Source: Hydrococcus rivularis NIES-593
GTDB lineage: Bacteria > Cyanobacteriota > Cyanobacteriia > Cyanobacteriales > Microcystaceae
Length of the DNA: 64,000 nucleotides
Reading direction: 5' to 3'
Assembly (NCBI RefSeq): GCF_001904635.1
Contig: NZ_MRCB01000001.1
Coordinates: forward strand, 381,667 to 445,666
How positions within the stretch are numbered: the stretch's first letter is position 1; the number at the start of each line of letters is the position of its first letter. Positions 56,115-58,456 of this stretch are shown piece by piece. The position numbers and the translations under genes were made by a program. The notes beneath the pieces were generated by a model. That model had not been told where the DNA came from and did not search any database. It worked only from the letters and a program-made list of their open reading frames with translations.

Positions 56115-56545
56115 GGCATAACCAACACCGCGTACCGTATGAATCAAACGCTTTTCGTTGTTTTCTTCTAATTTTAGGCGCAGGTAGGGGATATAAACTT
56201 CAATAATTTAGAATCGTCCATAAAGTCGTATCCCCAGACGCGCTCTAGAATCATGTCTTTGGTAAGTACCTGTCGGGGATGACTCAGAAGATACTCCAGT
56301 AGATCGAACTCCTTGGCGGTTAGATCGATGGCGCGTTTGCTCCGATAAACCTCGCGGGTGCGGCGATTTAAACTCAAGTCTTCAAATTGTAAGACATCTT
56401 CTTCTTTTTCTTGAGTACGGCGTAGATGAGCGCGAATTCTAGCCAGTAATTCCTCGATGCTAAAGGGGTTAATCACATAATCATCGGCTCCCACATCCAA
56501 ACCCGCCACGCGATCGCCGACTTCATCCTTTGAGGAATCTATTTT
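56103..56545 (-). pseudogene. OmpR-type response regulator pseudogene (truncated and frameshifted)
   Basis: The minus strand encodes the end of a receiver domain (KDEVGDRVAGLDVGADDYV) and an OmpR/PhoB winged helix (DLTAKEFDLLEYLLSHPRQV, VWGYDF). The first 70 or so receiver residues, including the phosphorylated aspartate, are missing. Near 56208 one base is deleted: the frame would otherwise go on [20 protein letters not shown] and [14 protein letters not shown] one-base shift plus N-terminal loss makes it non-functional. It overlaps the WD40 gene end by 12 nt. The intact relative would be an RpaA- or PhoB-like regulator. Confidence 0.8.
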
Positions 56546-56792: not shown

Positions 56793-58193
56793 ATGAGCTT
56801 AGTTATTGCGGGCGAACGTAGTGGGGTAGGAAAGACAACCGTCACCCTGGCGATGCTTTCATTTTTGTCTCGTCAAAAAAGCAAGGTGCAGTCTTTTAAA
56901 ATCGGTCCGGATTACATCGATCCCATGTTTCATACCTCGGTCACGGATCGCCCTTGTCGCAATCTAGATCCGATCCTGACTTCCGAAGCTTATGTGCGAT
57001 CCTGTTTTGCTTCCCATTGCCAAGGTATGGGCTATGCGTTAGTAGAAGGAGTCATGGGATTATTTGACGGCGTTGCATCATCTGGTGAAAACAAAGGACA
57101 AATAACAGATTTTGCTAGTACTGCTCATATCGCCCGACTGCTAGAGTTACCCGTTGTATTAGTCATTGATTGTAGTCGCTTGTCGGGTTCGGTTGCTGCC
57201 ATCGTCCACGGCTATCGTTCGCTCGATCCCAGAATCAACCTTGCTGGCATAATTTTAAATCGGGTTGGGAGCGATCGCCACTTAACTTTACTCAAAAATG
57301 CCCTAGAACCTGTCAAAATTCCAATTCTAGGAATTTTGCACCGCCAAGACGAGATTGCTATCCCAGACAGACACCTCGGCTTAATTCCAAGCGCAGAACT
57401 AAACCACTTAGAAACCCTTTTCGATCGCTTAGCACACTTAGCTCACAATAGTTTCGATTGGGAACGATTGCTACCTTTACTAAAAGTCTATTCTTCACCG
57501 AGTCCCCCAGTCCCCCAGTCCCCCAGTCCCCCAGTCCCCCCGTCTCCGATTAAAATCGCTATTGCCCGCGATCGCGCCTTTAATTTTTATTATCAAGATA
57601 ATCTCGACCTATTAGAAAAACTCGGCGCTGAACTTATTCCTTGGAGTCCTCTGGAAGACGCAAAACCGCCTGAAGCAGCTTGCGGACTCTACTTTGGTGG
57701 CGGGTTTCCTGAAGTCTTTGCTAGAGAGCTTGCTGAAAATCACTCGGCACGCGAAGCCGTTCGTCAAGCCGTTTTATCGGGAATGCCAACCTATGCCGAG
57801 TGCGGCGGTTTGATGTATCTGTGCGAAAAGCTAGTAGACTTTAACGAACAAACTTGGTCTATGGTCGGGATTTTGCCTGCAAATGCCGCAATGGGAAAAC
57901 ATCTAACCCTTGGATACCGCCAAGCAACTGCTCTAGACAACAGTTTACTCTTTAGGGCTAAAGAAACTGTTTGGGGACACGAATTTCATCGCTCTCAACT
58001 AACTTCCCAGCCTCAACCACCACTATTTGAAACTAGAGGCTGTTGGGTAAACAGTCCGGTTTTTCTAGAAGGATGGCGATTTCAACAAGTTCATGCCTCC
58101 TATATTCATTTGCATTTCGGCACCCAGCAAGCAATTGCTCAACGATTTCTTGCCCGCTGCCTTGCTTTTCACAAAGAAAATAGGTTAGGATGA
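56793..58193 (+). CDS. cbiA: Cobyrinate a,c-diamide synthase CbiA
   Basis: The enzyme amidates the a and c carboxylates of cobyrinate with glutamine and ATP during cobalamin or pseudocobalamin synthesis. The N-terminal dethiobiotin-synthase-like domain has AGERSGVGKTTVTLAML at residues 5-21. The C-terminal glutaminase-like domain has YAECGGLMYLCEK with the nucleophile cysteine, and HEFHRSQL. Between them (about residues 236-252) is a linker made by an 8-bp tandem repeat. Length 466 aa is normal. No cobalamin riboswitch is visible upstream. Confidence 0.92.
   Translation: MSLVIAGERSGVGKTTVTLAMLSFLSRQKSKVQSFKIGPDYIDPMFHTSVTDRPCRNLDPILTSEAYVRSCFASHCQGMGYALVEGVMGLFDGVASSGENKGQITDFASTAHIARLLELPVVLVIDCSRLSGSVAAIVHGYRSLDPRINLAGIILNRVGSDRHLTLLKNALEPVKIPILGILHRQDEIAIPDRHLGLIPSAELNHLETLFDRLAHLAHNSFDWERLLPLLKVYSSPSPPVPQSPSPPVPPSPIKIAIARDRAFNFYYQDNLDLLEKLGAELIPWSPLEDAKPPEAACGLYFGGGFPEVFARELAENHSAREAVRQAVLSGMPTYAECGGLMYLCEKLVDFNEQTWSMVGILPANAAMGKHLTLGYRQATALDNSLLFRAKETVWGHEFHRSQLTSQPQPPLFETRGCWVNSPVFLEGWRFQQVHASYIHLHFGTQQAIAQRFLARCLAFHKENRLG
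57501..57540. repeat. Five tandem AGTCCCCC octamers inside cbiA
   Basis: Exactly five copies of the 8-bp unit AGTCCCCC run from 57501 to 57540. As 8 is not a multiple of 3, the array is read in changing frames and yields a S/P/V/Q-rich linker. Gain or loss of one unit would shift the reading frame of the second domain. Confidence 0.95.
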
Positions 58194-58246
58194 CAGATGT
58201 CGTCTTTGAGACATAAACCGTTCAGGCAACAAAGGAGGTGATGCCC

Positions 58247-58318
58247 ATGGTAGAAAGTAGTAAAATCATGGGTCTCCTGGTTGATAATAGCCGGCTGCGT
58301 GCCGGGGCTGTTCTCTAG
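58247..58318 (+). CDS. Possible 23-aa leader peptide
   Basis: The ATG at 58247 follows AAAGGAGGTGAT (58231-58242), a 12-nt perfect match to the 16S 3' end. It opens MVESSKIMGLLVDNSRLRAG and ends AVL with TAG. The peptide enters the structured region, so translation should disturb the folding. The start codon lies in a CCCATG/CATGGG inverted repeat (58244-58249 and 58267-58272). No homologue is known to me. Confidence 0.45.
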   Translation: MVESSKIMGLLVDNSRLRAGAVL

Positions 58319-58393
58319 CAGTCAGTTTAACCTGTTTAAACTGCTGCTGGCGTTCCTTCCGGCAGTCAGGTTTCAACCAGAAGACCCACTAGA

Positions 58394-58456
58394 CCGCTCT
58401 CGCATCCCGTGTCGCTAAATGAGACACTATCCCTATGCGAGAGCGGATAGCTTTTT
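58394..58456 (+). terminator. Strong intrinsic terminator after the structured RNA
   Basis: CCGCTCTCGCAT (58394-58405) and ATGCGAGAGCGG (58435-58446) form a perfect 12-bp stem. GTGTC/GACAC (58409-58413, 58423-58427) makes an inner stem. TTTTT follows at 58452-58456. It ends about 43 nt before the queF start. Confidence 0.88.

Follow-up and report, generated by a model that had tools for sequence, protein, structure and literature searches.

A structured small RNA with a short open reading frame upstream of queF in Hydrococcus rivularis: a probable member of the cyanobacterial ncl0160/Sye_sRNA1 family

Introduction

What is the structured RNA encoded between cobB/cbiA and queF in Hydrococcus rivularis NIES-593, and does it have anything to do with queF? 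The original prediction, made from the nucleotide sequence alone, described positions 58231–58456 as a leader or noncoding RNA of unknown family, and offered two readings: a leader that decides between termination and queF transcription, perhaps by sensing preQ1, or a small RNA in its own right, situated between cbiA and queF. Here, we examined the fold, the genomic neighborhood, the phyletic distribution, and the coding capacity of this element. All positions refer to the window, that is, the whole 64,000-nucleotide stretch of contig NZ_MRCB01000001.1 that was analyzed, and all features of the RNA lie on its plus strand.

A Conserved Folded Element Ending in a Terminator

The segment 58231–58456 folds at −93.1 kcal/mol, compared with −66.0 ± 4.65 kcal/mol for shuffled sequences (z = −5.8), and none of 200 shuffles folded as low. 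In 38 diverse sequences, 94.7% of the cells in stems P1–P4 form standard pairs and 12 pairs are altered on both sides, while none of 500 shuffles equaled any of five covariation measures; as a control, sliding the partner columns by 1–3 positions brought pairing down to 26–53%. The search for compensatory changes in related cyanobacteria, proposed with the original prediction as the mark of a functional structure, hence gave strong covariation: the folded element is genuine and its structure is conserved.

The closing stem P1 joins 58270–58284 with 58373–58387, exactly where it had been placed, with 14 pairs instead of the 13 first reported, 6 of them altered on both sides. The two hairpins that it was thought to enclose turned out to be a single long imperfect arm with a variable tip. 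This arm consists of P2 (58290–58296 with 58364–58371) and P3 (58301–58307 with 58357–58363), both supported by folding and covariation, and of P4 (58313–58318 with 58347–58352), which carries a stop codon in its 5′ arm and is more weakly paired (82.9% of cells). The 12-bp terminator with a T-run was correctly recognized: the hairpin spans 58394–58446, with its outer stem formed by 58394–58405 and 58435–58446 and with CTTTTT at 58451–58456, and its sequence recurs in relatives: of 188 homologs, 159 contain ACCGCYC and 155 contain GRGCGGATAG-T. With a loop of 29 nt and a gap of 4 nt, this terminator escaped a simple terminator scan.

The conserved block begins 5′ of 58231 and extends from the near-invariant motif ACCGTTCAGG (58216–58225; alignment A1) to the terminator, which forms the 3′ end of the RNA gene; with a putative 5′ end, the whole gene occupies approximately 58200–58456. 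The 10-mer ACCGTTYAGG found at 58216–58225 and in the homologs, 5′ of the Shine–Dalgarno sequence, is conserved with no pairing partner assigned to it. Comparison with the consensus resolved no sigma-70 promoter for the RNA gene.

The RNA Is Not Linked to queF

Searches against NCBIfam confirmed the neighbors in the window as CobB and QueF, and in this genome 43 nt separate the end of the terminator from queF. By using tblastn, we found cobB/cbiA upstream of the RNA in 49 loci, this position being occupied in other genomes by psbD, a glmU-like gene, or others. On the downstream side, queF adjoins the RNA only in this species (G000) and in its nearest relative (G002); all of the 39 genomes searched encode queF, at an unrelated place in 37 of them. 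The genes that follow the RNA include queF, a pterin carbinolamine dehydratase-like gene, a porin gene, a cysteine synthase-like gene, and others. Because queF is adjacent in two genomes only and other genes take its place elsewhere, the RNA is not a queF leader, and a choice between termination and queF transcription finds no support. The second reading, that of an independent small RNA, was right, in keeping with the varying neighbors and with the retention of the RNA at loci that do not have queF beside it.

Several other features of these loci were recorded. In other families, a pterin-4a-carbinolamine dehydratase-like gene and SLH-type porin genes often lie 3′ of the RNA (many loci, among them L282). 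Within the cbiA/cobB frame of the window, a run of CCCCCAGT repeats (57500–57545) encodes a Pro-Ser-rich linker. On the minus strand, 56174–56509 holds the remnant of an OmpR-family response regulator, whose best NCBIfam match, far below the cut-off, is NblR (positions 95–195 of 228); its C-terminal end continues in another frame, and it looks like a decayed gene.

Correspondence with a Published RNA Family

An Rfam covariance search of the element returned nothing at the gathering threshold and nothing at E ≤ 10, and this included the preQ1 riboswitch families, in agreement with the earlier remark that the element is unlike the known preQ1 classes. We also considered other candidates. The 6S RNA (RF00013) of this genome is encoded elsewhere (G000:C23, 59096–59278, 104.6 bits), no tRNA or tmRNA was detected within the window, and a phage origin was dismissed for want of a match. 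Yfr6 and Yfr103 are wrong in length, distribution, or copy number. An rRNA operon, suggested by contigs that end just 5′ of the RNA in many draft genomes, was rejected as no rRNA family matched and psbD was found instead. Many cyanobacteria carry more than one copy of psbD.

The description "unknown family" holds for Rfam and fails for the literature, in which two accounts fit the element. In Synechococcus elongatus UTEX 2973, Sye_sRNA1 is about 200 nt long on Northern blots, is the most abundant sRNA in standard growth, and is transiently lower in high light; its 53 homologs, mostly downstream of psbD or cobB, have a conserved structure and include TU475 of Synechocystis 6803 at sll1501 (PMC6091082). 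TU475 and TU2045 belong with this RNA, which the text of that paper treats as noncoding and to which it assigns no function (PMC6091082). The second account concerns ncl0160 of Synechocystis 6803 and Nostoc 7120, which is widely conserved and is predicted to encode a peptide of 23–25 amino acids behind a ribosome binding site, the stop codons among 83 homologs being TAA (47), TAG (34), and TGA (2); picocyanobacteria were excluded from that study (Brenes-Alvarez et al. 2016; PMC4734099).

The element of the window shares with these RNAs a position downstream of cobB/cbiA (49 loci) or psbD, a reading frame of 23–25 amino acids behind a ribosome binding site with TAA, TAG, or TGA stops, a conserved secondary structure, and a wide cyanobacterial distribution. 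Moreover, in a 2.7-Mb genome that is apparently S. elongatus-like (G128), the RNA follows psbD, with the start of the second porin gene some 2.7 kb further on; this spacing agrees with the 2,714 nt published between the start sites of Sye_sRNA1 and somA, and thus supports the identity with Sye_sRNA1. Because synteny, reading frame length, and spread coincide, we regard the family as already known: compared with the published descriptions, the element corresponds to ncl0160/Sye_sRNA1 on every feature tested. Both the RNA and its probable coding of a peptide have therefore been described before, and the family is absent from Rfam 15. The main texts of both papers, to which our search was confined, contain no mention of the competition between helices P0 and P1, the 17-codon frames, the picocyanobacterial homologs, or the weak selection on the peptide that are reported below; in the ncl0160 paper, this difference concerns the P0/P1 competition and the 17-codon forms in particular (PMC4734099).

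Distribution in Cyanobacteria

The RNA is single-copy in its own genome and has a match at E ≤ 1 in 95 of 98 related genomes, mostly a strong one spanning a core of about 190 nt. Of 386 genomes drawn from the phylum at large, 130 gave a hit with a covariance model built from 38 sequences (R1); these lie in the order of the window and in other families of the class, and many of the remaining genomes are outside the class or picocyanobacteria-like. The weakest R1 hits fall in family f41, which, judging from genome sizes and kinship, is probably the marine or picocyanobacterial family, and were taken as real because they share the plan GGAGG-ATG-GGGTC...GACCC. A second model (R2), built from seven f41 sequences, detected the RNA in 74 of 121 genomes of this family, with E-values down to 1e-36. 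In one of them (G205:C1), R2 matches at 2018526–2018644 (1.7e-29) and, about 5 kb away, at 2023861–2023975 (1.2e-8) may represent a duplicate. In the wider phylum, two loci of family f47 (L250 and L251) were discarded as apparent chance matches to the Shine–Dalgarno sequence, with short and different reading frames. Judging from these matches, a free-standing RNA is present in most oxygenic cyanobacteria, with shortened forms in picocyanobacteria-like genomes.

No match of meaningful score was found in two 1.4–1.5-Mb genomes of the window's own family, which seem to resemble the reduced symbiont UCYN-A, nor in some further genomes. Closed or nearly closed genomes without a convincing copy are G137 and G292 (genus g58) and G010 and G018 (genus g8). 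The RNA can therefore be lost, and the natural losses in genera g58 and g8 could reveal its purpose.

A Conserved Reading Frame within the RNA

Our preferred reading, to which we give somewhat better than even weight, is that this local copy of ncl0160/Sye_sRNA1 is translated and that its own folding gates its translation. The 5′ half of the element, whose coding capacity went unnoticed in the original prediction, carries at 58231–58242 the sequence AAAGGAGGTGAT, a near-perfect Shine–Dalgarno sequence complementary along its length to the 3′ end of 16S rRNA, in which GGAGGTGATG is invariant among 58 aligned homologs. This 12-mer occurs only three times in the genome; we rejected the idea that it is unique apart from 16S, since the two other copies lie in other sequence, one of them before an ORF. 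Downstream stands a predicted 23-codon ORF, MVESSKIMGLLVDNSRLRAGAVL (58247–58318), with its ATG at 58247 and a TAG stop at 58316–58318. Among 196 distinct core sequences, the ORF has 22–25 codons in 195, the exception (L259) stopping at codon 17, and the stops are TAA (98), TAG (95), and TGA (3). In the distinct cores, ATG and GGGTC lie 20, 23, or 26 nt apart and never at another distance. With independent columns, the 146 distinct 23-codon frames should together contain about eight internal stops. In some families, the ORF ends at codon 17, after MADSSKRLGRRFGV.QL, and all 19 distinct sequences from picocyanobacteria-like genomes are 17-codon forms such as MISSCLIQGLLIAENAG.

These frames bear on a different reading, in which the RNA acts in trans by base pairing and the ORF is a by-product or a secondary function. 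The published status of the RNA as an abundant sRNA, a constraint that is stronger at the RNA than at the peptide level, and the conservation of the 3′ arm all speak for such a role. We nonetheless consider it unlikely, if worth serious attention, because frame, Shine–Dalgarno sequence, and stop are kept in all lineages despite exchanges between TAG, TAA, and TGA, replacement stops at the next codon, and 3-nt indels, and because few long stretches of the structured region are both conserved and unpaired.

If the RNA is translated, as we prefer to think, what is selected could still be the peptide itself, and the RNA would simply be a structured message encoding a functional micropeptide. The pattern M-x-[DE]-SSK-x-MG...RL-CAGAVL is indeed kept across the class. 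Against this, covariation of the stem goes along with free exchange of the middle residues (LLVE to HQIG), and the final six residues are lost in the families with 17-codon frames. The synonymous signal is likewise weak: in frame, the synonymous share reaches 0.19, versus 0.15 and 0.16 in the other frames, BLOSUM scores of the replacements are hardly better, and at the conserved codons (AGT AGT, GGT, CTG, GCC) synonyms are almost never used. From the weak synonymous signal and the near absence of synonymous swaps, we conclude that constraint at the RNA level dominates. Amino-acid selection on the predicted peptide is thus weak, a micropeptide function seems rather improbable, and the reading frame seems to be more important than the peptide.

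Two Mutually Exclusive Helices around the Start Codon

Translation gated by folding, as we favor, finds support in a second helix, P0. In an RNAalifold analysis of 58 sequences, part of the Shine–Dalgarno sequence and the AUG (58237–58249) pair with 58267–58277. In this helix, 98.7% of cells are paired. Nearly all changes in P0 are from G-C to G-U or A-U to G-U or the reverse and keep the pairing; the homologs contain no double-sided changes, the support being one-sided because the Shine–Dalgarno sequence and the AUG cannot vary, and the shuffling control is uninformative as one side hardly varies. The third base of codon 10 provides independent support, since 144 of 146 sequences have a pyrimidine there, though the Leu and Arg codons at this site permit A or G: P0 needs this base, accepting C and T against G, and P1 does not, having a mismatch or U-A. 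This support for P0 concerns the main core homologs, as distinct from the picocyanobacterial form.

P0 and P1 draw on common nucleotides: the 3′ arm of the former runs into the 5′ arm of the latter, and GGGUC is needed both by P0 and by the outer half of P1, which makes the two helices mutually exclusive. In thermodynamic predictions at 37 °C for 38 sequences, the median probability of P0 falls from 1.0 in 5′ part transcripts to 0.18 in the full core, that of an unpaired AUG rises from 0.0 to 0.41, and that of the outer half of P1 reaches 0.82 in the full core. Several of the 38 sequences are predicted to retain P0 in the full core, most clearly L009, L018, L025, and L068. Taken as a model, two conserved and mutually exclusive helices suggest a translation that gates itself.

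The masking by P0 also weighs on the proposal that an abundant RNA with a near-perfect Shine–Dalgarno sequence serves as a decoy tying up free 30S subunits. Such a decoy would account for the abundance of the homologs and for an invariant GGAGGTGATG longer than initiation requires; it would leave the conserved frame and stop unexplained and would have its own bait partly hidden, so that we hold it to be very improbable. Least credible of all is a queF leader, whether acting by attenuation or as a preQ1 riboswitch of a new class, which has the closeness of terminator and queF in this genome in its favor and is already contradicted by synteny and by the lack of an Rfam preQ1 match.

Proposed Mechanism and Comparison with Known Systems

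In the mechanism that we propose for self-gated translation, the RNA would be a terminated, free-standing transcript with an ORF of 17–25 codons within a conserved long hairpin. While only the 5′ half exists, P0 would mask part of the Shine–Dalgarno sequence and the AUG. Once the 3′ arm is made, P1 would join GGGUC with GACCC, break P0, and expose the start. A ribosome reaching the stop codon in P4 would then open the long hairpin and so release its conserved 3′ arm. As a more speculative extension, to which we attach a fairly low probability, the selected trait may be the act of translating the tiny ORF and not the peptide, P0 and P1 competing and the passage of the ribosome exposing the 3′ arm.

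Dual-function RNAs such as SgrS/SgrT or SR1 are small RNAs that carry a short ORF. The present element has this in common with them but has no known target, and its ORF lies within the structured core. Leader-peptide attenuators combine a short ORF, a strong Shine–Dalgarno sequence, and competing helices, all of which are found here; in contrast to them, the element has no fixed downstream gene and its terminator ends an independent transcript. We rejected this class as well, given that the downstream genes vary where a fixed downstream operon would be expected.

Significance

Few small RNAs of oxygenic cyanobacteria are as abundant or as widely conserved as this one, yet it has neither an Rfam family nor an assigned function. 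From its covariance model and picocyanobacterial forms, together with the competing helices and a frame that is kept while the peptide drifts, one can derive a set of point mutations for testing in Synechocystis or S. elongatus. If the proposal that translation itself is the selected trait were true, an ancient RNA would report the state of translation and change its shape accordingly.
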